DNA of 23,375 nt, taken from positions 1 through 23,375 of IMG/VR virus record IMGVR_UViG_3300042350_001167. One strand, given 5' to 3'. The notes below the pieces were generated by a model that saw only the letters and a program-made list of their open reading frames with translations, ran no database searches and had not been told where the DNA came from. The position numbers and the translations under genes are program-made. Shown here piece by piece: positions 8,375 through 21,861 of the stretch. Within the stretch, counting starts at the first letter, position 1. The number at the start of each line of letters is the position of its first letter. The stretch comes from a virus.

Positions 8375-9577
8375 ATGCCATTCTCATTTCCATCATCGCC
8401 CACCGTGGGCCAGACCTCCACGCAAAACGGAAGAAGCTACACATACGCTGGCGGCTCGGTGTGGGAACTGACGCCAGCTTCCGGCGGCGGCTCTGATGCT
8501 CGCTGGGATTTGTTTTTGCCGCCTGCGCCGACAAGCGTGACGGCGACGGCTGGCAATGCGCAGGTGGTGGTGGCGTGGACTGCGCCTACGGGCGTTCTTT
8601 CTCAGACACCAATCGTAGATTACACGGTGCAATATCAGCCAAGCGGCGGATCGTGGACAACCTTCACGCGATCTGTCTCGACCGCAACGAGCGCGACGGT
8701 GACGGGGCTTCAAAACGGCACGGACTACACGTTTCGCGTGGCAGCGGTGAATGGCGTCGGCACGGGGGCGTATTCGGCGGCGAGCAGCGCGGCTACGCCA
8801 AGCAGCGGGGTGTCAGTCGCTTACCTTGTTGTCGCTGGCGGTGGCAGCGGCGGCAAAACCTATGGTGGCGGCGGCGGCGCTGGTGGAATGCTGACCGGCA
8901 CAGCAACGCTAGATGTTGGCTCTACCAACGTGGTCACTGTCGGTGCTGGAGCGTCTGGCGTCACCGGCAATTGGGTGCCGGGGAGCCAAGGCTCCAACTC
9001 CTCTCTTGGATCGTCGCTGACGGCGGTTGGCGGCGGATACGGTGGCGGCAACGCTGCCAACGGCGGGCCGAATGCTGGCGGCAACGGCGGCTCGGGCGGC
9101 GGTGTGGGTGGAGGCTACCCCAAGCAGTCGCCGGGGACCGGCACGGCTGGGCAAGGCAACGCAGGTGGCACATGCACAGACGCCCCCGGCGGCGGTGGCG
9201 GCGGTGCTGGCTCTGTGGGAGGTAACGGCACCAACGTGGCTGCTGGCAGCGGCGGCAACGGTCAATCGTGGCTCAACGGCGTTACCTATGCGGGCGGCGG
9301 AGGCGGCGGAATACACCCCGGCTCTGCCTCCGGTGGTTCCGGCGGCGGCGGCGCTGGTTCGTATGCCGGTGACGCTGGCGCGACGAACACTGGCGGCGGT
9401 GGTGGCGGCGCGAGCGACAGCGCCTCTTGGGCTGCACCTTCCGGTGCCGGTGGCTCTGGCGTAGTGATCATCCGCACTACAGTTGCCGCATCGGCAACCA
9501 CCGGCTCGCCAACCGTGACGCAGGCAGGCGGTTACAACTGGTACACGTTCACTGGCACCGGGAGCATCACGTTCTGA
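8375..9577 (+). CDS. Adhesin with fibronectin III and glycine-rich domains
   Basis: 400 residues. Residues 1-35 (FPSSPTVGQTSTQNGRSYTY, WELT) are a short virion-attachment motif common in phage structural proteins. Residues about 50-142 form a fibronectin type III domain (APTSVTATAGNAQVVVAWTA, NGTDYTFRVAAVNGVGTG). Residues about 148-375 (AYLVVAGGGSGG, many GGGG runs, GSGVVIIR) are the glycine-rich domain seen in phage tail-tip adhesins, whose polyglycine-II sandwich is known from T-even-type gp38-like tips. Residues 380-400 (GGYNWYTFTGTGSITF) close with a small strand pair. Likely a receptor-binding protein. Its stop overlaps the MAHF gene. It is paralogous in its Gly-rich part to 11674-12564. 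Confidence 0.8.
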   Translation: MPFSFPSSPTVGQTSTQNGRSYTYAGGSVWELTPASGGGSDARWDLFLPPAPTSVTATAGNAQVVVAWTAPTGVLSQTPIVDYTVQYQPSGGSWTTFTRSVSTATSATVTGLQNGTDYTFRVAAVNGVGTGAYSAASSAATPSSGVSVAYLVVAGGGSGGKTYGGGGGAGGMLTGTATLDVGSTNVVTVGAGASGVTGNWVPGSQGSNSSLGSSLTAVGGGYGGGNAANGGPNAGGNGGSGGGVGGGYPKQSPGTGTAGQGNAGGTCTDAPGGGGGGAGSVGGNGTNVAAGSGGNGQSWLNGVTYAGGGGGGIHPGSASGGSGGGGAGSYAGDAGATNTGGGGGGASDSASWAAPSGAGGSGVVIIRTTVAASATTGSPTVTQAGGYNWYTFTGTGSITF

Positions 9578-10055: not shown

Positions 10056-10406
10056 ATGAGTTCCACATATACGCAGCTACCCGGCACGCTCAACGTTGTC
10101 GTCGCCCACACTGACGGCGTGACCATCGCTGGGTCGCTCGGGTTCTCCACGACTGGAGACACGCTGACGGCCGTGATCTACGAAGACACAGCTGCCGGGT
10201 ATGCAGCCGCGATCGCAGCAACACCAGCCCCTGCTGCGACTTGGTCCATTGCTCGCGTCGATAACTCAATCGGCGCCATCACGCTCTCGCTGGCGGCGTC
10301 AACCGTCAAGGGTCTGTCGCTGGCAAAAAGCTATCGCTGGTTCCTGCGTTCGTCCGCTCTTGATCGCGCAGTGACGTCTGGGACGTTTACGTTGAGGGCT
10401 CCATGA
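10056..10406 (+). CDS. BppU N-terminal-like baseplate/fibre adaptor, copy b
   Basis: 116 residues from ATG 10056, with a weak GGGTGA before it. It repeats the layout of 5562-5930: [12 protein letters not shown] opening, LTAVIYED strand, a central Ala-rich stretch, [12 protein letters not shown], then [10 protein letters not shown] and [11 protein letters not shown]. Protein identity to copy a is low except at the start and end, so the duplication is old or the two were acquired separately. It ends within the 18-bp junction repeat, overlapping the MSDI-type collagen fibre by four bases (ATGA). The adaptor role is inferred as for copy a. Confidence 0.63.
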
Positions 10407-10414
10407 GCGACATC
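10397..10414 (+). repeat. 18-bp junction repeat, copy b
   Basis: Identical to 5921-5938 (GGCTCCATGAGCGACATC); spans the BppU-like/fibre gene overlap. Confidence 0.85.
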
Positions 10415-11284
10415 CGCGTCAGCGTCACCGGCGCCGCTCCGTTTACCGTGACCGTCACTGGTGCTACCGGCGTATCGCCGGTTATCACAAACGGACAGAC
10501 GTTCAGCGTGCAGCTGGCCGGCGTCGGGCCGACGGGGCCGTCTGGCCCGCGCGGCGAAACTGGCGCTCGCGGCGAGGTCGGAGCCACTGGGGCCACTGGC
10601 GATGCGTCAACAGTGACCGGCCCCACCGGCGCGGCATCCACGGTCGCCGGCCCGACCGGTTCTGCATCAACCGTGACGGGACCGACGGGGGCAGCCTCGA
10701 CCGTACCAGGCCCCACAGGCGCAGCGTCGACGGTCACTGGGCCTACGGGCGCTGCGTCAACTGTCCCAGGCCCAGTCGGCCCGACCGGTGCATCTGGTCA
10801 GTCGATCGTCGGGCCGACAGGCCCTGCGGGCGCGCGTGGCAGCGACGGTTCGGCCGGAAGCACTGGAAGCACGGGGCCTCGAGGAAGCGATGGCGTTGCA
10901 GGCGCCACTGGAAGTACGGGAGCACGAGGCAGCGACGGCAGTACCGGCGCCACTGGTGCGCGTGGCAGCGACGGCGAAGTCGGGCCTACCGGAAGCCCTG
11001 GCGCCGCATCAACTGTGACTGGGCCGACAGGCGCTGCGTCAACTGTGACGGGACCGACTGGACCGGCCGGAAGCAGCGGAGGCTCTTCGCTCTCGGTGCA
11101 CTCGTCGGTGGCAAACTTCCCGGCGACCGGCTCATCGACAACGCTGTACCTGGACGAATCCACCTCTCGACTGTTTCAGTGGGAGTCGCCCGTCTACGTA
11201 GAGATCGGAGTCTCTGGTGGCGGCGGTGGTGCCTCGACGCCTTCGGCGGCTGACAATCTCTATCTCTGGGCCAACTTTCGATAA
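10403..11284 (+). CDS. Collagen-like tail fibre ending in an LDES module
   Basis: 293 residues. Residues 1-40 are an MSDI-type base like that of the 713-residue fibre. Residues 42-65 and 143-200 are uninterrupted Gly-X-Y triplets (for example [19 protein letters not shown]). Residues 71-130 are six decapeptide repeats of the type [10 protein letters not shown], in which STVT breaks the triplet register; two further copies lie at 201-220. Residues 228-275 are the LDES module ([22 protein letters not shown]), nearly identical to that of 3733-4077. The end is [11 protein letters not shown]. Collagen-like segments in phage fibres form trimeric shafts. The interruptions would give flexible or kinked points. 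The protein likely presents the adhesin encoded two genes downstream. Confidence 0.84.
10613..10792 (+). repeat. Six 30-bp tandem coding repeats
   Basis: Six in-frame units encode [50 protein letters not shown] and [10 protein letters not shown]. Units differ mainly at third positions, and V(T/A/P)GP varies at residue 2. Two more partial copies lie near 11003-11062. Slippage or unequal recombination could change shaft length. Confidence 0.88.
11164..11224 (+). repeat. Direct repeat L1, copy b (61 bp)
   Basis: Partner of 3966-4026, with three mismatches and a 38-bp exact core. It lies at the 3' end of the collagen-like fibre gene, in the codons for the LDES module. Confidence 0.9.
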
Positions 11285-11293
11285 GGAAACCAC

Positions 11294-11677
11294 ATGGCTA
11301 CATCACCAGCATTCGCCGTGACGCCTCGCATCGGTGCCGTCAGCATCGCCACGGCAGAATCTAGCTACACCGCGCCGACAAACGTGGGCACGCTCATCAC
11401 AGGTGCAAGCACGGGCACTCGCATTGCTGAAATCGTTGTGAAGCTGGCGGCGACGAGCGCGGCGGCTATCGTCCGCGTGTTTCTGTATGACGGCACAACG
11501 TACTGGCATTTCGACGAAATCACTGTGGCGGCTGCGACCGGCTCTAGCACTGTGCAGCAGACCCGCGTCAGCACTAGCTACAACAACCTCATCCTGCCGT
11601 CCGCGTCTTGGTCGATCCGCGTGACGACCAGCGTGGCACAGACCACGCACGTCACGGCCCTAGGGGCCGACCTGTGA
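11294..11677 (+). CDS. Beta-rich virion protein resembling the MAAPN type
   Basis: 127 residues from ATG 11294 with AAGGAAA just before it. The layout parallels 4084-4455: MATSPAFAV opening, TPRIGAVSIATA, TLITGASTGTRIAEIVVKLA, VFLYDGTTYWHFDEITV, then LILPSASWSIRVTTSVAQ. Similarity to the earlier protein is at pattern level rather than clear identity. It again stands between a fibre-base gene and an adhesin gene. Known relatives are structural proteins of unknown function in tail and neck regions. Its TGA overlaps the GTG start of the next gene, suggesting coupled translation with the adhesin. Confidence 0.62.
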   Translation: MATSPAFAVTPRIGAVSIATAESSYTAPTNVGTLITGASTGTRIAEIVVKLAATSAAAIVRVFLYDGTTYWHFDEITVAAATGSSTVQQTRVSTSYNNLILPSASWSIRVTTSVAQTTHVTALGADL

Positions 11678-12564
11678 ACCAAGGCATATACGGGTTAGGT
11701 GGGCAGATTGTCACGCCGGTGCAGGGGCCGTTTAGTGGCACTGCCGATGCGAGGAAGTTGCTGGCCGTGCAGGCACTTATCGTCGCTGGTGGTGGCGGTG
11801 CGGCTAGGCGCAACGAGAGGGCTGCCGGCGGCGGCGGTGGTGGCGGCTTTGTTGAGCAAAGCATCGGCATCACGCTTATGACGAACTACTCTGTACAGAT
11901 CGGTGCAGGTGGAGCAGGTGCCACAGCCGTAAACAACTCAGGGGCCAACGGCGGACTATCAGTGTTTGGCTCAATCGTTGCGCTCGGTGGCAGCGGTTCA
12001 AACACGGGTGGAGCTATCACCGCCACTGGTGCTTCTGGTGCTGGCAATTCCTTCCTTACTCGGATGTCGTCATTGATCTCGCTCCAAGGCAACACCGGAG
12101 GTCAGGGCGTCAGTGCTGCAACCTCTTCCGGTGGTGGCGGCGGTGCGGGTGCCGCCGGCGCAGACTCCACGGCGTCGGCGTCTGGTAACGGTGGAATCGG
12201 CAGATCGTCCGCGATCACCGGCACAACCATTTTCTACGGAGCAGGTGGTGGCGGCGGTGGATACGTTGGCACATCGACGGCTGGCTCAGGCGGGCTGACA
12301 GGCGGCGGCGCAGGTTCCTCTGACCTTGCTGTCGCAGGGACGGCTGGCGCGGCGGGTACTGGCGGCGGCGGCGGCGGGGCAGCTTGCAATGGAACCGCGT
12401 CCAGCAATGGCGGAAACGGCGGCAGCGGTGTCGTCATCCTGCGATGGAACGCCTCGCAGGCAGTCGCCACGCTCTCGGCTGGATTGACGTTTACTCGCAA
12501 CACAGTCGGCACAGACACGGTAATTCAGATCACAGCAGGCACGGGCACCGTCACCTGGAGTTAG
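11674..12564 (+). CDS. Glycine-rich tail-tip adhesin, copy b
   Basis: 296 residues. I chose GTG 11674 (overlap GTGA with the previous stop, AGGGG at 11662-11666) because the longer frame from 11608 only shadows the previous gene. The start MNQGIYGLGGQIVTPVQGP leads to LAVQALIVAGGGG and then a long glycine-rich domain with VQIGAGGAG, GGLSVFGSIVALGGSGS, several GGGGG runs and GSGVVILRWN. It ends TVIQITAGTGTVTWS. This is the same adhesin domain as in 8375-9577 but without the fibronectin III domain, and with different loop sequences. Gly-rich loops of such tips are the known sites of host-range variation. Likely receptor binding. Confidence 0.78.
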   Translation: MNQGIYGLGGQIVTPVQGPFSGTADARKLLAVQALIVAGGGGAARRNERAAGGGGGGGFVEQSIGITLMTNYSVQIGAGGAGATAVNNSGANGGLSVFGSIVALGGSGSNTGGAITATGASGAGNSFLTRMSSLISLQGNTGGQGVSAATSSGGGGGAGAAGADSTASASGNGGIGRSSAITGTTIFYGAGGGGGGYVGTSTAGSGGLTGGGAGSSDLAVAGTAGAAGTGGGGGGAACNGTASSNGGNGGSGVVILRWNASQAVATLSAGLTFTRNTVGTDTVIQITAGTGTVTWS

Positions 12565-12893: not shown

Positions 12894-13541
12894 ATGCCAT
12901 TCTTTTCACTACCAGCAACGCTCAGCGGCAACGCCACGCAGCTGCAGGGCCGCGCTGTGTCAGCTACTGCCCCGGCCGCCAACCAGGTGCTCTCGTGGAG
13001 CGGCTCCGCTTGGCTTCCAGCCACCGGAGTGACCGGCCCGACCGGCTCGGATGGCTCGCAGTTCTACGGCGGCTCTGGGGCACCTTCTGCTGGGTTCGGC
13101 AAGAGCCGAGACTTCTGGCTCGATACGACAAACGGCCGGCTCTACGGGCCAAAGGCTGACGGCTCGTGGGGATCTCCGCTGCAACTGCAGACCGGGGCGC
13201 AGGGGCCGACTGGCGTCACTGGCGCGACAGGGCCTGCTGGCCAGAGCTACACCGGGCCGACTGGCAGCGGCGGCGTCACGGGGCCAAGCGGCGCGGACGG
13301 CGCGTCGATTGTCGCTGTTGGCGGAACGCCAAACACGAACGTGGGCCGAAACGGCGACCTCGCGTTCGACATCAGCGGCAAGCAGTTTTTCGGACCAAAA
13401 GCGAACGACCAGTGGCCGGCAGCGGTGTCGATCGTCGGCCCTACAGGGCCGACAGGATCACTGACGATCAACGACGTGATCGCTGCCGTAGGCAGCAACG
13501 CCACGCTGCGGGCCGCGATCAAGGCCGCCGCCACCTCGTGA
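12894..13541 (+). CDS. Collagen-like fibre with two duplicated display modules
   Basis: 215 residues from ATG 12894, with GAGGTGA at 12882-12888; an upstream in-frame start at 12864 has weaker support. Residues 1-45 (SLPATLSGNATQLQGR, QVLSWSGSAWLPA) are a base common to phage fibres. Residues 46-54, 101-137 and 182-189 are Gly-X-Y runs. Between them lie two related modules: 55-95 (SQFYGGSGAPSAGFGKSRDF, WLDTTNGRLYGPKADGSW) and 138-177 (GGTPNTNVGRNGDLAF, FFGPKANDQWP). The end is a short helix (TINDVIAAVG, LRAAIKAAA), perhaps for trimerisation. This is the last fibre gene of the island and has no adhesin of its own, so it may be a separate short fibre. Confidence 0.78.
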   Translation: MPFFSLPATLSGNATQLQGRAVSATAPAANQVLSWSGSAWLPATGVTGPTGSDGSQFYGGSGAPSAGFGKSRDFWLDTTNGRLYGPKADGSWGSPLQLQTGAQGPTGVTGATGPAGQSYTGPTGSGGVTGPSGADGASIVAVGGTPNTNVGRNGDLAFDISGKQFFGPKANDQWPAAVSIVGPTGPTGSLTINDVIAAVGSNATLRAAIKAAATS

Positions 13542-13551
13542 GGCACGCCCG

Positions 13552-14619
13552 ATGCTCGAGCACCTCCACCAACTGGCCGCGCACGCGTACTACGCTGGCG
13601 AGCTCGACGCTGGCCGCAGGGCGTGCGAGCGGTTGCTCGAAATGGAACTGACTCCGGAGAAGGAGCGGCTGGTGCGACGCAACCGCAGCTGGTACACGCA
13701 GACGCTCGACGAGCTCGTCGCGTGCCGGTTTCACAGGTTTGACATTGAGCCAGCATCGGACGGTTGGTCGACGTTCAATCCAACGATCATCGCGCACGAC
13801 GATGGCTTCCTGGCGATCGTGCGGTCGAGCAACTATCGGATCGTTGACGGCCGGTATGTAATTCCGCCGGAGGATGGCGATAAGATTCGCACTATCAACG
13901 TGCTGTGTGCGATTGACGCCGACCTGGCCGCTGTGTCGCAGCCGTCCGCTATAACCGATCCGATCTACCCAAAATCCGACTTTCCCGTGCAAGGGTTTGA
14001 GGACTGCCGGCTGAATGCGGTCGATGGCGGGCTTGTGGTGAGTGCCACGGTTCGCAACTGGGCCGGCCGAGACGGCACGTGCCGGATCGCAACGGCCACC
14101 CTTCTGCCGTACATGGCAAACGTCATCGATCCAGCCATGCTTGACGAACCGCACGCAGGCAGGCATGAGAAGAACTGGATGCCGATCTCCGGCACGGCTG
14201 GATTCCTCTACTCGTGCTGCGATGAAGGACGCGTGTCGACGGTCCGCCGCGACGGCTGGAGGTGGCTGATTGAGCATCACGCCGAATCCCCGGCGATCGC
14301 CCGCGGCTGGCGCGGCGGCTCGCAGCTTGTGGACCTCGGCGACGGCCGCTGGCTGGCCTTGGTCCACGAGGTGGCCGACGACACTGGCGGCCGGATCTAC
14401 GAACACAGGTTCGTCCTGTTCCGCGAAGACGGCTGGCGAATCGCCGGCTGGTCGCCGGCTTTCGCGTTTCGCGAAACGCGGGCGATTGAGTTTGCGGCCG
14501 GGCTCGCTCGCCGCGGTGACAAACTAGTGGCAACCTTTGGCGTGCGTGACGCCGAGGCGTGGATGGCTGAAATGAGTGTGGCAGAAGTTCTTTCCATGAT
14601 CGGGGGCAGCAATGGGTGA
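13552..14619 (+). CDS. GH130-like beta-propeller protein with N-terminal TPR-like helices
   Basis: 355 residues from ATG 13552, with TGAGG eight bases before. Residues 1-55 form two helices with a TPR look (LAAHAYYAGELDAGRRACERL). Residues about 65-335 resemble the five-bladed propeller of GH130 mannoside phosphorylases and relatives: NPTII (76-80), GFEDCRL (148-154), EKNWMPI (206-212), LYS (219-221) and RGGSQLVDLGDGRWLALVHE (254-273), the last being a characteristic pattern. The GFED acid may match the catalytic position, but I cannot confirm a phosphate-binding set. It starts the glycan cassette and overlaps the methyltransferase by eight bases. It may act on, or only bind, mannose-type glycans. 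Finding this in a virion module is unusual. Confidence 0.68.
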   Translation: MLEHLHQLAAHAYYAGELDAGRRACERLLEMELTPEKERLVRRNRSWYTQTLDELVACRFHRFDIEPASDGWSTFNPTIIAHDDGFLAIVRSSNYRIVDGRYVIPPEDGDKIRTINVLCAIDADLAAVSQPSAITDPIYPKSDFPVQGFEDCRLNAVDGGLVVSATVRNWAGRDGTCRIATATLLPYMANVIDPAMLDEPHAGRHEKNWMPISGTAGFLYSCCDEGRVSTVRRDGWRWLIEHHAESPAIARGWRGGSQLVDLGDGRWLALVHEVADDTGGRIYEHRFVLFREDGWRIAGWSPAFAFRETRAIEFAAGLARRGDKLVATFGVRDAEAWMAEMSVAEVLSMIGGSNG

Positions 14620-15166
14620 CGAGCTCGAGGACCAGGTTGGCGGCCGGCTGCGGATTCACTGGATGCCAGGAGACTGGTTTCCGTGTTCGCCGGAGGCCGT
14701 TGGCCACTACGCGGCCAAGGCCCGCGTGTGCCGCGAGCACAAGCCGTCGAGCGTGATTGAGATCGGCACGCGGTGCGGCTACTCGCTTGCGTCGTTTCAC
14801 ATTGTGGCGCCTGACGCGAAGTTTCTGTGCGTGGACGGTGCCCTCGACGCCGACAGTCCTGCTTGCCTGCAGCACTGGCAGAGCGTGGTCGACTCGCTCG
14901 GCATCGACGCCCAGCTGATCGTCGCCAACAGCCACGACTTGCAGCAGCTGCCCCCGGCGGACTTCGCCCACGTGGACGGCGACCACTCCTATTCTGGGGC
15001 ACTGGCCGATCTGCGGCTGGTGGCTCACGTGCCGGTGATCCTGGCCGACGACTGCGACAATCCGGACGTGGAGAGGGCTGTTGAAGAGTTTTGCGAAGAG
15101 ACGGGCCGCGAGCCTGTCTATTTCCACGACGGGCTGCGGAAGGCCGCCGTGCTTGTGGAGGCTTGA
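14612..15166 (+). CDS. Class I SAM-dependent methyltransferase (Methyltransf_24-like)
   Basis: 184 residues; ATG 14612 lies inside the end of the previous gene. The SAM-binding motif I is VIEIGTRCGYS (48-58), followed by FLCVDG (71-76, the acidic post-II position), FAHVDGDHSYSGALADL (118-134) and VPVILADD (140-147). This set is typical of Methyltransf_24 and cephalosporin hydroxylase-like enzymes, which often modify sugars or small molecules. The HVDGDHSY element suggests a metal-supported O-methyltransferase. The N-terminal HWMPGDWF (16-23) is unusual. Flanking GH130-like and glycosyltransferase genes make a sugar O-methylation role plausible by inference. The next gene starts in the stop (TGATG). 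Confidence 0.8.
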   Translation: MGDELEDQVGGRLRIHWMPGDWFPCSPEAVGHYAAKARVCREHKPSSVIEIGTRCGYSLASFHIVAPDAKFLCVDGALDADSPACLQHWQSVVDSLGIDAQLIVANSHDLQQLPPADFAHVDGDHSYSGALADLRLVAHVPVILADDCDNPDVERAVEEFCEETGREPVYFHDGLRKAAVLVEA

Positions 15167-16224
15167 TGATCGTCGGCATCTACGCACTCGCCAAGAACGA
15201 AGCCGGAAACGTCGCGGCATGGGAGGCTTCGTGCCGCGACGCGGACGTGCGGGTGGTCACCGACACGGGCTCAACCGACGACACGGTGCAGCTGCTCGAG
15301 GCCGAAGACGTGACCGTGGCTCGCGGCAACGTCGTTCCGTGGCGGTGGGACGACGCCCACAACCTGTCTATGCAACACCTGCCGAGCCACGTCGACGTGG
15401 CAATCCGGCTCGACCTCGACGAGGTGCTTGAGCCGGGTTGGCGGGACGCCCTGGAGGCTGCGTGGAAGCCGGAAACAACGAAGCTGCGGTATTGGTATCA
15501 GTGGAGCGATGCCCTGCGGTTTAAGAGCGACAGGATGCACCTCCGGTCTGGCTACCGGTGGACGGGTGCCACGCACGAGGGGCTGGTGCGGTGGGCTGGT
15601 GGCGAGGTGCAATCGCACTGCGAGCAGACTCTGATCCGGCACCACAGGCAGCCAGGGAAACAGCACAAGTCCGACCTGACGCTCCTCCAGCAGGCCGTCA
15701 AAGAGGCTCCGCATGATGCCCGAATGTCCTGGTATCTTGCCCGCGAGCTCGACTACCACGACCAGCCCGGGATTGTGGAGGCGTTTGAGCACTACCTCAC
15801 GCTCCCCGGCGGGGCCGCGTGCGAGCGGGCCTACGCGTATCGTGTGCTCGCCCGCCGGCAGCCTGAGAAGGCCGGCAACTGGCTCCTGCGGACCATCGAT
15901 GAGTCGCCCCACGAGCCAGAGGGTTACCTAGCCCTCGGCGAGGCGTGCTGGGATGCCGGCGACGCCGTCGGCGCCCTGCACTGGGCCAGGCGGGCATCGA
16001 TGGCTCCCCCTGACAGACAGTCGCACACCAGCGATCCAGTGGCCTATGGGCACCGAGCCCCGGAGATGGCCGCTACTGCTGCCTATAGCCTCGGGCTGAA
16101 GCAGGAGGCCCTAGAGCACGCCCGCGAGGCGTTCCGCCGGCACTCGTCGCAGGAGACGGCCGCAGCGGTGGCCAAGCTGGAGCTCGAGCTCACGTCGCAC
16201 ATTCCCGGCCCGCAAGAAAGGTGA
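15166..16224 (+). CDS. GT2-family glycosyltransferase with C-terminal helical repeats
   Basis: 352 residues from ATG 15166, which overlaps the previous TGA; a longer frame from 15091 is a shadow. The fold is GT-A: MIVGIYALAKNEAGNV (1-16), VVTDTGSTDDTVQLLE (30-45), VVPWRWDDAHNLSM (56-69) and the metal-site RLDLDE (81-86), then GYRWTGATHEGL (129-140). These fit retaining or inverting GT2 enzymes of the WaaE/SunS-like type. Residues about 175-345 are paired helices of TPR type (SWYLARELDYHD, AYRVLARRQPEKAGNWLL, EGYLALGEACWDAGDAVGAL), which often hold protein acceptors. By inference it glycosylates a virion protein, perhaps the Ser/Thr-rich fibres next door. Local GC is high (68-72% in two 60-base lines counted). 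Confidence 0.83.
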   Translation: MIVGIYALAKNEAGNVAAWEASCRDADVRVVTDTGSTDDTVQLLEAEDVTVARGNVVPWRWDDAHNLSMQHLPSHVDVAIRLDLDEVLEPGWRDALEAAWKPETTKLRYWYQWSDALRFKSDRMHLRSGYRWTGATHEGLVRWAGGEVQSHCEQTLIRHHRQPGKQHKSDLTLLQQAVKEAPHDARMSWYLARELDYHDQPGIVEAFEHYLTLPGGAACERAYAYRVLARRQPEKAGNWLLRTIDESPHEPEGYLALGEACWDAGDAVGALHWARRASMAPPDRQSHTSDPVAYGHRAPEMAATAAYSLGLKQEALEHAREAFRRHSSQETAAAVAKLELELTSHIPGPQER

Positions 16225-16227
16225 TCC

Positions 16228-16737
16228 ATGCCAACGCTACTGCCACACATTTCCAGAAACCTCGCCACGCGGCTCGCGGCGTCGCTCTCAGCGTTCACCT
16301 GGGGTAGCGTGCCTGGCGGCGCGATCTCAGTGAGCATGCAGCGGAAGCCGGACTACGGCCTAGAGGATCTCGGATCCCTCCGTGTGTCGGTCGTACCCGG
16401 CCCGTACACGATGAAAACAGAGACACGTGGCATGGAGGTGGCCGACGTGACGGTCGGCATCGTCGTGGCCAAGCACGTCGGGAGCGAATCCGACATTGAG
16501 GCACTGGAGGACCTGTGCCAGGAGATCGTCGACGCTATTCGCTCAAATTACATCCAGCCCGCGGGGTTACCGGAGAACAGTGACTGGACAGAGGTCGGCA
16601 ATCCGCTTCCCTACGATCCGGAGCTCCTCGAGGCCCGCAACGTGTTCATGGCACAGATCGCCGTGCAGTGGGACGTGCCCGTGGATAAGTGGGTGCCGGT
16701 GGCACCCACCGGCCCGACAGGAGCTACCGGCGCATGA
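16228..16737 (+). CDS. Tail terminator/tail completion-like protein with collagen-like stub
   Basis: 169 residues from ATG 16228 with AAGGTGA just before. A helix (LATRLAASLSAF) is followed by strands (LRVSVVPGPYTMKTETRG, MEVADVTVGIVVAKH), a helix (DIEALEDLCQEIVDAIRSNY), then a closing strand (ARNVFMAQIAVQWDVP). This order fits the tail terminator fold that caps the tail tube at the head-tail interface. The protein ends VPVAPTGPTGATGA, a short Gly-X-Y run like those of the collagen fibres upstream; this is not expected in the family. Location before a gp10-like and tail-tube genes supports the call. The next gene overlaps by four bases (ATGA). Confidence 0.65.
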   Translation: MPTLLPHISRNLATRLAASLSAFTWGSVPGGAISVSMQRKPDYGLEDLGSLRVSVVPGPYTMKTETRGMEVADVTVGIVVAKHVGSESDIEALEDLCQEIVDAIRSNYIQPAGLPENSDWTEVGNPLPYDPELLEARNVFMAQIAVQWDVPVDKWVPVAPTGPTGATGA

Positions 16738-19143: not shown

Positions 19144-19319
19144 TGGCCCTGTTTGCGCAGATTCACCACGATTCCGAGAGCAGCGAGCCGGCCCCCACCA
19201 TGTACAACTTCCACCCCTTCTACGAAACGCCGAAGCCGCAGCTGCCTGAGGCCACTCCCGACCTGTTGCTGGCATTCGGATTTCGCCCTGTGAAGCCGGA
19301 GGTGCCAGATGGCGGCTAG
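18990..19319 (+). CDS. Tail assembly chaperone, T-like (probably made by -1 frameshift)
   Basis: The T-like frame reads, after an unreliable start, DAWELGFHLAGIIGVEPWGF, TLRQLCWMAEGRQHENWTHT, ASLMALFAQIHHDS, FHPFYETPKP and LLLAFGFRPVKPE. The L..LLWMAEGR..E.W..TA.LMAL pattern is the usual C-terminal T-type signature. GTG 18990 is only the first start-like codon, and there is no good ribosome site before it; the frame has no stop back to 18867, so fusion to the G-like protein by frameshift is the more probable route. The stop overlaps the tape measure start by eleven bases. Confidence 0.72.
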   Translation: MRLRGSPQDAWELGFHLAGIIGVEPWGFTLRQLCWMAEGRQHENWTHTASLMALFAQIHHDSESSEPAPTMYNFHPFYETPKPQLPEATPDLLLAFGFRPVKPEVPDGG

Positions 19320-21861
19320 CGCAGGGGCGATTCGTGCCGGCTCGGCATACGTTGAAATCTTCGCCCGCGATGGGCAGTTCCAGCAGGCGATGAGCCGGAT
19401 CCGCGCCCGCATGATGACGCTCGGCACGCAGCTGCGGCAGGCCGGCACGGGCATGACGATCGCCGGCACGGCGCTGGGGGCTCCGTTCGTGTTTGCGGCC
19501 CGCACGGCGGCAGCGTACTCGCTCGAGATGGCTCGCGTGCGGGCGAATACCGGCGCGACAGACCAGCAGTTCTCGCAGCTGAACGCATCTGCAAAGAATT
19601 TCGCCGTTCAGTTTGGCCGTGCGCCTGAAGAGGTGGCTGTCGCCATGAGCGAACTTGCCAAGGCAGGGCTAGACGCCGAGGGGGTGATGAAGGCTATCAG
19701 TCCAATCCTCTCGGTGGCAGCAGCCGACAACATGGAGCTCGCCAGGGCCGTTGAGGTGGTCGTTAGCACGATGGCGCAGTTCCGCATGGGCACGGACGAT
19801 TTCGGAACGATTGCCGACAAGCTGCAGGCGACTGCAAACGCCTCGACAACCAGCGTCGACTCGCTCGGCGAAGCCCTCACATATGTTGGCCCAAAGGCGT
19901 TCGCTGCTGGCCAGTCTCTCGACGATGTGCTTGCGTCGCTCGCCACGCTCGGTGACGCGGGTCTTCGCGGGTCGCTCGGAGGCACGGGGCTTGCGAGAAT
20001 CATTGAATCAATTGCCAACGAAGAGGACAAGCTCGCTGCCCTTGGCGTCAGCACTCGCGACGCTACTGGAAACATGCTGCCGTTCATGGACGTGATGGAG
20101 CAGCTTGGGACGAAAGCTCCTGATGCGAACATTGACTCGCTTCGCGTAATGACGGAAATCTTTGAGATTCGCGGCGCTAACGCGGCCACATCACTTTCGC
20201 AGATGCGTGAAAAGTTCGACCAAGTCATGCAGGCGATTGGCAACTCTGGCGGATCTGCGCTGGGGAAAGCCAAGGCAGTGATGGGCTCGTTCGGCGGTGC
20301 AGTCAAGCAGCTTGGCGCCCAGTTTGGCGTGTTCCAAATCCAAGTCATTGAGTCGATGGGTCCGCTCGCCACGCAGGCCGTGCAAGCGTTCACAAAGCTG
20401 ATGGCTGTCGTCGGCGGGTTCATCAGCCGCAACGGCACGCTCGTCGCGATCGTGGCCGGCAGTGCAGCAGCCCTCTTCGGCCTCGGCATAGCCTCTCTGG
20501 CGGCTGGCATCGCCCTCCAGGGACTCGCCACGGGCCTCCGTGTCATCCAGGCCGTGCTGCCGTTGATCCCGGCCCTGTTCTCGCCGATCGCGTTGTCGAT
20601 CGCTGCGATGGCCGCGGCGATCGGCGGCGGCGTGATCATCGCCCGCACGCTCTCTCCTGCATTCAAGCAAGAGACTGACGCGATCGCCGCCGCCCTCATG
20701 CGGCTGGACTTCGGCGCCGCGTGGTCCGTGATGAACATCAATCTGGCGATTGCCCTCGTGCAAATGCACCAGGCGTTTGCTCAGGCGTTTGACCTGGTGA
20801 AGAACACGGTGATTTCTGCCAGCAGCTTCATCGGCGACATGCTGATCCAAGGGCTCGACCGGTTCATGGGGCTATTCGGGGCCGACATCCTCACGCTGCA
20901 GGCCGGCTTTGAGAAACTGGGCGTGTATTTCCGTGCCGCGTTCGACTGGGACTTTGCCGTGAACGGTATGTCGGACGCACTCAAGAAGGTCGAGGCCCGC
21001 GTCGAGGAGGCCCGCCAGCGAGCCCCGACGGCAGACGCTCGAGCAGAGCAGCGGCGGCAGGAACGAGAGAAGCAGGCAGAAGGACGCAACGAAGAGATCA
21101 AGCGGCGCGACGCCGGCTTTGAGGACACGATCAAGGAACTCCGGAAGGACGCTGCCCGGGCGCGTGAGCGTGGCCTCGGCAAGACCGACAAGGTGCCAGC
21201 CGAGGAAAAGGTTGACGAGAAGGGGAAACCGGTGAAGCCGAAGCTGCCGGCGGCCCCCCCGGGTGCATTCATGCCGCCACCGGAAGGCGGGAAGGCTGAG
21301 AAGGACAAGGGCATCGCCGGTGCCGGCAACTGGAGCGGCGTCGGTCTGGATATCGGCCCAGAGATCAACAGGCTGGAGGATCCCGCCAACCGGACCGCCG
21401 ATGCCACCGAGCGAACGGCGGAAGCAGTCGGCGCAATCGCCGGCAAAGGCGGCGGTGAGGCGGCTGGCGTTGCGCCGATGGCGGCGGCGGCCGGCATGGC
21501 CCCCGGAGAGTTCCAGGCCCAGCTGGACGCAATCGCACTGATGGCCGCCGACCCCAACTCAAACGCCGGCGACCTTCTGGCCCTCGGAGGCAATGCGGCG
21601 ATGGCAGGCCAGGCGGCCCAGGCGGCAGCACCACCAGCCATCGCGATGGACGCAGTCGCACCTCGAGCTCCTGGCGTGCAGCAGGCCGCCGCTCAGGGCA
21701 TGCAGGCCGCCGTCGAGACGTCGCAGATCGGGATCGCATTCCAGAAAGTCGGCAGCGAGATCGTGGCTGCCATTACAGCCGGCACTGAGGTTTCCAAGCA
21801 GATGCTCAGCGCGCTCACCAAGATTGCAGACAAAAAGCCAACCGAGGCAGTGTTCTCATGA
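19309..21861 (+). CDS. Tape measure protein
   Basis: 850 residues from ATG 19309, with GGAGG about six bases before. Residues about 10-340 follow the TP901-type tape measure core (AGTGMTIAGTALGAPF, EVAVAMSELAKAGLDAEGVM, LRGSLGGTGLARII, MTEIFEIRGANAATSLSQM). Residues 365-450 hold hydrophobic segments (TLVAIVAGSAAALFGLGIAS, LPLIPALFSPIALSIAAMAA) that could insert in the host membrane during DNA delivery. Residues about 556-622 are a charged coiled coil. Residues about 630-830 are Pro/Ala/Gly-rich and low complexity. At about 0.15 nm per residue, a typical ratio, the tail would be near 130 nm. No lytic transglycosylase or peptidase domain is visible. Confidence 0.92.
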   Translation: MAASAGAIRAGSAYVEIFARDGQFQQAMSRIRARMMTLGTQLRQAGTGMTIAGTALGAPFVFAARTAAAYSLEMARVRANTGATDQQFSQLNASAKNFAVQFGRAPEEVAVAMSELAKAGLDAEGVMKAISPILSVAAADNMELARAVEVVVSTMAQFRMGTDDFGTIADKLQATANASTTSVDSLGEALTYVGPKAFAAGQSLDDVLASLATLGDAGLRGSLGGTGLARIIESIANEEDKLAALGVSTRDATGNMLPFMDVMEQLGTKAPDANIDSLRVMTEIFEIRGANAATSLSQMREKFDQVMQAIGNSGGSALGKAKAVMGSFGGAVKQLGAQFGVFQIQVIESMGPLATQAVQAFTKLMAVVGGFISRNGTLVAIVAGSAAALFGLGIASLAAGIALQGLATGLRVIQAVLPLIPALFSPIALSIAAMAAAIGGGVIIARTLSPAFKQETDAIAAALMRLDFGAAWSVMNINLAIALVQMHQAFAQAFDLVKNTVISASSFIGDMLIQGLDRFMGLFGADILTLQAGFEKLGVYFRAAFDWDFAVNGMSDALKKVEARVEEARQRAPTADARAEQRRQEREKQAEGRNEEIKRRDAGFEDTIKELRKDAARARERGLGKTDKVPAEEKVDEKGKPVKPKLPAAPPGAFMPPPEGGKAEKDKGIAGAGNWSGVGLDIGPEINRLEDPANRTADATERTAEAVGAIAGKGGGEAAGVAPMAAAAGMAPGEFQAQLDAIALMAADPNSNAGDLLALGGNAAMAGQAAQAAAPPAIAMDAVAPRAPGVQQAAAQGMQAAVETSQIGIAFQKVGSEIVAAITAGTEVSKQMLSALTKIADKKPTEAVFS

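Follow-up and report, generated by a model that had tools for sequence, protein, structure and literature searches.

To our knowledge, virion glycans made by the phage itself are known from few phages, their assembly is hardly known, and propellers of the GH130/GT108 type have so far been known from free oligosaccharides and polysaccharides. The nearest tested precedent for the system described here is SgtA of Clostridioides difficile, a GT2 glycosyltransferase of 358 amino acids with a C-terminal TPR region, which is encoded beside bclA3 and adds beta-O-linked N-acetylglucosamine (GlcNAc) to Thr residues of collagen repeats in vitro (PMC7157674). Among phages, two reports describe mycobacteriophages that glycosylate their capsid and tail-tube proteins with glycosyltransferases of their own (PMC12363180, PMC11652166), the examples including Che8 gp110, Corndog gp38 and Myrna (PMC12363180). 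Here we analyse a three-gene cassette at positions 13552-16224 of the IMG/VR record IMGVR_UViG_3300042350_001167, which was taken as a whole (23,375 bases, hereafter "the window") and is probably a genome fragment of a tailed phage; the phage is a freshwater phage. Judging from homology, predicted structures and analogy, we put at roughly 0.5 the probability that the cassette encodes a pathway by which the phage O-glycosylates virion proteins of its own, with the fibres encoded just upstream, collagen-like where such fibres are present, as the likeliest targets.

An earlier note, made from the bare sequence, had described a GH130-like propeller protein, a methyltransferase and a GT2 enzyme with a TPR-like tail as one overlapping operon between fibre genes and a tail terminator. 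Three overlapping open reading frames (ORFs) are indeed found at exactly 13552-16224, between the last fibre gene and the presumed tail terminator. They form one operon with overlaps of 8 bp (propeller/methyltransferase) and 1 bp (methyltransferase/glycosyltransferase), followed after a gap of 3 bp by the tail gene at 16228:

13552..14619, + strand: GH130/GT108-type five-bladed propeller, 355 amino acids, with a short N-terminal helical part (residues 1-55)
14612..15166, + strand: class I S-adenosylmethionine-dependent methyltransferase, Methyltransf_24, 184 amino acids
15166..16224, + strand: GT2 glycosyltransferase with TPR tail, 352 amino acids, DLDE motif at residues 83-86

The start of the glycosyltransferase is placed at ATG 15166; the mechanically called start, TTG 15091, is unsupported because homologues align from the ATG.

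The calls of a methyltransferase and of a GT2 enzyme with a TPR-like tail hold. The methyltransferase scores 35.5 bits against PF13578 (cut-off 26.3), contains a nearly invariant EIGTRCGYS and an invariant DGDHS motif, and displays a weak, distant similarity to COMT and rhamnosyl O-methyltransferase. The glycosyltransferase matches PHROG 13126, annotated "beta-1,4-glycosyltransferase", at E=2.4e-59, and its TPR tail, weak by sequence, is clear in the structural model (predicted local distance difference test, pLDDT, 90). The closest folds to this model are those of ThuS and SunS, glycocin S-glycosyltransferases with peptide acceptors, which resemble it across both the GT-A and the helical parts (Foldseek E 2e-14 vs 5e-7 for the next class; structural alignment Z 20-21 vs 17.6), and ThuS is also the best hmmsearch match. 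Identity to these enzymes is 13-15%, and they modify small bacteriocin peptides. In architecture (GT2 followed by TPR, about 355 amino acids), in length (358 vs 352) and in context (a collagen-like gene as neighbour) the enzyme resembles SgtA, which differs in that a single enzyme is known, the sugar is GlcNAc, the target belongs to a spore coat and not to a virion, and a propeller partner has not been reported. A match of the TPR region to the peptide-binding domain of collagen prolyl-4-hydroxylase (2v5f, Z 13.6) was set aside, matches this strong being commonplace for TPR regions. Phage glycosyltransferases can also protect DNA, a role suggested for freshwater actinophages (PMC10202952), and the enzyme might modify DNA bases as in T-even phages. 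However, the ThuS/SunS-like fold with its TPR tail, the position in a tail operon and the bacterial relatives beside collagen genes make that role extremely improbable.

Single-sequence searches of PDB and Pfam gave no match for the propeller, and profile and fold searches were therefore needed. Six of 35 aligned members of its family match PF04041 (GH130) weakly (best E=1.3e-4), the window protein itself falling below the gathering score, and the best PDB profile match, Lin0857, has a non-significant E=0.05, with the G-I-E-D-A-R motif aligned to G148-F-E-D151-C-R153. The AlphaFold2 model (pLDDT 93) has the five-bladed propeller fold of both GH130 and the GT108 MPT enzymes. In Foldseek, GH130 enzymes occupy the top ranks throughout (E 9e-12), and the fold search names Lin0857 as a beta-1,2-mannobiose phosphorylase. 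In VIA-align, GH130 mannoside phosphorylases come first (Z 20-23, best 22.9, with 264-284 residues aligned), followed by the GT108-type Leishmania MPT enzymes 6q4x and 6q4z (Z ~18, ~272 residues), which belong to a group of GDP-mannose-dependent transferases and a phosphorylase. The assignment as GH130-like thus stands by strong structural similarity to GH130/GT108, although the window protein has no Pfam match and shares only 12-17% identity with these structures. The known GH130/GT108 members act on free oligosaccharides or polysaccharides, whereas the window propeller is linked to, or in bacteria fused with, a presumed protein glycosyltransferase.

Residues N76, R91, E150, D151, E206, N208-P211, H272, Y283, H285 and D333 are invariant or nearly so in members from phages, cyanophage and bacteria, even where identity falls to 24%, and the E206-KNWMP-211 motif is conserved in the family. 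Their counterparts in BT3780, namely Asn, Arg, Glu-Asp and the C-terminal Asp, have sugar-binding or catalytic roles (PMC4599007), a correspondence established by motif and by profile alignment to true GH130 proteins. By this alignment the fold is accompanied by the catalytic Asp in its E-D-x-R motif (E150-D151), the sugar-binding Asn (N76) and the C-terminal Asp (D333). For the features that would mark a phosphorylase (basic residues binding phosphate) or a hydrolase (a Glu pair), the comparison extends to sequence conservation, H272, R254 and K207 being conserved. The earlier note had suggested that the propeller may have become a binding protein, and a sugar-binding virion or chaperone protein that has lost catalysis could be imagined insofar as other roles of GH130-like folds are conceivable and the +1 and phosphate sites lie outside the residue-by-residue mapping. 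We consider this very unlikely in view of the near-invariance of Asp151 and the other residues listed, a propeller dN/dS (ratio of nonsynonymous to synonymous substitution rates) of 0.15-0.19, and glycosyltransferase fusions in several bacterial lineages. With its catalytic-site motifs kept down to 24% identity and, in bacteria, its fusion to a glycosyltransferase, the propeller is probably an enzyme.

The cassette recurs widely among viruses. Within IMG/VR the propeller is present in at least 148 candidate stretches and the glycosyltransferase in 226. Among 65 distinct cassettes, 53 have the order propeller-methyltransferase-glycosyltransferase, eight carry an extra gene between the methyltransferase and the glycosyltransferase, two have other sequence in place of the methyltransferase, and two consist of propeller and glycosyltransferase only; those of the extra genes that we examined encode FkbM methyltransferases or are additional GT2-like genes. 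The propeller and the glycosyltransferase therefore form a core with a swappable middle, which fits the expectation for a glycan pathway. A terminator-like gene directly follows in 60 of the 65. With the tape measure protein as a marker for relatives with and without the cassette, we found seven relatives with homologous tail genes that lack it, and in several of these the terminator follows the fibre gene without interruption; the cassette is therefore an accessory insertion at a fixed slot. In a presence/absence comparison, as proposed in the earlier note, the cassette thus occupies the same slot in at least 60 distinct virus contigs and is missing from the seven relatives. Identity between distant relatives is mostly 52-68% in the cassette and ~25-40% in the terminator and the tape measure, which points to stronger constraint on the cassette or to its spread between phages, and its dN/dS of 0.05-0.20 indicates purifying selection.

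Base composition does not reveal a separate origin. The earlier note had seen the cassette as clearly more GC-rich than neighbours at about 47-55% G+C, which it took as a sign of separate origin; no 600-base stretch of the window falls below 55%, and the G+C content of the cassette (65.4%) differs from that of the rest of the window (62.5%) within normal variation. Among segments of equal length (SD 2%) it lies at the 93rd percentile, 7.5% being richer, and of the 389 sixty-base lines in the window 104 reach 68% G+C, 17 of them inside the cassette. Third-position GC is likewise ordinary, at 0.76-0.82 in the three cassette genes and 0.76-0.78 in capsid, terminator and tape measure. An argument for foreign origin from G+C content was rejected on these figures.

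As a separate observation, a sharp recombination joint lies within the propeller gene at window positions 14,400-14,500 in comparison with two near relatives (L009 and L036), to which the window is 99-100% identical from ~14,450 to past 16,600 and 67-91% identical upstream. Most of the propeller gene therefore travels with the fibre genes, and the remainder with the methyltransferase, the glycosyltransferase and the terminator.

The head-tail part of the phage that the window spans begins with the capsid-protease and continues through successive fibre genes and the cassette to small tail genes and the tape measure. The features that bear on the acceptor question are as follows:

13-1671: capsid-protease
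10403..11284, + strand: second collagen-like fibre, with GPTGAASTV repeats and GXY runs, tail-fibre PHROG matches; candidate acceptor
12894..13541, + strand: collagen-like fibre directly upstream of the cassette, tail-fibre PHROG matches (mechanical ORF start 12864); candidate acceptor
16228..16737, + strand: small tail gene immediately behind the cassette; no Pfam or PHROG match was obtained, and its naming as tail terminator is a presumption from position and conservation
19309..21861, + strand: tape measure protein (PHROG 28, E=1.6e-56)

The fibre at 12894-13541 contains the runs GVTGPTG, GAQGPTGVTGATG and GPTGPTG, with 17 GXY triplets and Thr at eight Y positions, and is kept together with the cassette in near relatives; the fibre at 10403-11284 has 38 GXY triplets and Thr at 14 Y positions. 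Of 49 cassette loci, 22 have Thr-bearing collagen runs in the 6 kb upstream, as against none of the seven cassette-less relatives; these runs are present in all seven tested loci whose propeller is at least 70% identical to that of the window. A glycosyltransferase with a collagen-like gene beside it is seen in the window, its near relatives and many bacterial relatives, but not, within 6 kb, in the other 27 of the 49 cassette loci. The targets might instead be virion proteins outside the fibres, in the capsid, in the tail tube or among the small tail proteins: about half of the tested cassette loci have no collagen fibre nearby, the operon runs on into tail genes, and the mycobacteriophage enzymes likewise are phage-encoded and decorate virion proteins, their targets being capsid and tail tube, with no propeller or collagen link in the available descriptions. 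The constant place of the cassette, immediately after the last fibre gene, and the bacterial relatives, whose neighbours are collagen genes and which had no phage structural gene that we noted beside them, make this alternative rather unlikely.

Three further observations concern fibres and possible acceptors. Two glycine-rich fibre ORFs of the window, at 8375-9577 and 11608-12564, match the same PHROG 2295 domain and are possibly duplicated or alternative fibre tips. Some cassette phages that have no collagen fibres encode, downstream of the tape measure, a 112-residue protein with a conserved GVTGTTGTTGVT tract (L220:3129-3464, L221:3174-3509, L223:4877-5212), which could be an alternative acceptor; the short GVTGTTGTTGVT tracts are not convincing as collagen. 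Finally, in cyanophage DSL-LC02 (L157:5195-11639), for which a Synechococcus host is recorded, a distant propeller homologue is flanked on one side by a collagen-like fibre with GTQGTTG repeats and on the other by two FkbM methyltransferase genes, which makes it an independent case of the association of propeller and collagen fibre. Naming a host through isolated phages was abandoned, as the nearest relatives of the capsid and the tape measure are all below 30% identity and of mixed kinds.

A scan of 84,980 genomes yielded 46 bacterial loci. The propeller belongs to a longer polypeptide with GT2-TPR at its start in Mesorhizobium, Bradyrhizobium, Devosia, Acetobacteraceae and some Actinobacteria, and (Gly-X-Thr)5 coding tracts occur in 23 of the 46 loci as against none for the reversed control pattern; loci from Ignavibacteria and Acidimicrobia have collagen genes with mixed Y positions. 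The rhizobial neighbour proteins have a DUF4347 head, reach ~1,800 amino acids and contain up to several hundred Gly-X-Thr triplets (PF01391, E=3.9e-157), with type I secretion genes nearby in some genomes. The fused propeller and GT2-TPR parts encoded at these rhizobial loci are homologous to those of the window (30-39% identity), with a Methyltransf_24-like part nearby; the loci differ in being bacterial and in their association with a probably secreted protein with long Gly-X-Thr repeats. This is apparently an undescribed glycoprotein system; a literature search, which left out most subscription journals, found no paper on glycosylation of rhizobial DUF4347-collagens and no account of what these loci do. 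In an even sample of 249 genomes of Hyphomicrobiales, the propeller is present in eight, a (GXT)5 tract in 20 and both in three, namely those with the fused enzyme, where the two lie close together on the same contig. In two Hyphomicrobiales genomes that have GXT-collagen and lack the propeller, a GT2 of this type is still encoded close to the collagen, adjoining ABC-transporter and HlyD genes, which are typical of type I secretion.

Several individual loci may be recorded here. In L185:1035-5624, L188, L203, L193 and other Mesorhizobium and Bradyrhizobium records, GT2-TPR-propeller fusions lie beside giant DUF4347 proteins in which Gly-Ala/Ser-Thr triplets number in the hundreds. The closest bacterial relative found, in a metagenome-assembled genome (MAG) of Ignavibacteria (L159:1-8994), consists of two propellers in tandem that share 44-48% identity with that of the phage; a SunS-like GT2 and a collagen gene lie no more than 7 kb away. 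Records titled Bifidobacterium breve (L163, L168, L191) look like misnamed freshwater actinobacterial MAGs, as judged by isolate names.

Homologues confined to host polysaccharide loci, away from fibre genes, would have told against the earlier note; the phage homologues are at fibres, and many of the bacterial ones are beside collagen-like genes. A related alternative is that the cassette alters the surface polysaccharide of the host during infection, by superinfection exclusion or receptor masking. Glycosyltransferases encoded in the host-recognition regions of aquatic phages are usually read in this way (PMC7029224), and the GT2 and GH130 families act mostly on polysaccharides or oligosaccharides. 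We nevertheless regard it as unlikely, because the enzymes look soluble, having no hydrophobic segments (peak 19-residue hydropathy 0.8-1.3), are encoded in a late tail operon, and have peptide glycosyltransferases as their nearest glycosyltransferase folds and collagen-linked bacterial relatives; furthermore, no flippase or membrane glycosyltransferase was recognised among the genes scanned beside the cassette.

The proposal of fibre O-glycosylation should be interpreted with some caution, since several results weigh against it. The window glycosyltransferase does not match the curated SunS model TIGR04195 (cut-off 350 bits), against which its bacterial relatives score 21-36 bits. In 27 of the 49 cassette loci there is no Thr-bearing collagen-like run within 6 kb upstream, and the fibres are of another type; the acceptor differs in these phages or collagen is incidental, and collagen therefore cannot be the only acceptor, so that we rejected it as a universal one. 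Fisher's test on 22 of 49 versus none of seven gives p=0.035, a value that ignores shared ancestry and counts near-duplicates among the seven negatives. Among the bacteria, 17 of the 23 (Gly-X-Thr)5 loci are Mesorhizobium orthologues, the other six being from two Bradyrhizobium, Devosia, Acetobacteraceae, another alphaproteobacterium and an actinobacterial MAG, and the overlap in Hyphomicrobiales comprises three of eight propeller genomes (p=0.019), all with fused enzymes.

By analogy with SgtA, we suggest a late, cytoplasmic pathway acting on phage virion proteins. The GT2-TPR enzyme would add the first sugar to Ser/Thr of the fibre, here probably to Thr of Gly-X-Thr collagen-like runs, while its TPR superhelix would hold the acceptor chain. 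The GH130/GT108-type propeller would extend this sugar with a mannose-type residue from mannose-1-phosphate or GDP-mannose, and the methyltransferase would cap the glycan by O-methylation. The activities, donor, sugar, acceptor and step order are what we infer from these comparisons, and the benefit may lie in fibre stability, adhesion or receptor tuning. The fibre-linked glycan cassette of the earlier note is well supported by synteny and homology, with fibre decoration itself as the conditional part, and we hold with moderate confidence that it is real and conserved and belongs, with the propeller as an uncommon partner, to the known kind of virion glycosylation by phages. More tentatively, it may be a mobile module common to phage fibres and bacterial collagen-like proteins, in which GT2-TPR would start an O-glycan on the Thr of Gly-X-Thr, the propeller would extend it on the protein and a swappable methyltransferase would cap it.

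In conclusion, the presented data describe a compact putative pathway, conserved across a large group of uncultured phages, whose gene neighbourhood names a testable acceptor, and they suggest a possible new role for a GH130/GT108 propeller in building a protein-bound glycan. They also predict a mode of modification for the giant Gly-X-Thr collagens found in rhizobia and other bacteria, one that could be tested in cultured strains. If the mobile module exists, virus fibres would be built with the help of a prokaryotic counterpart of collagen glycosylation.

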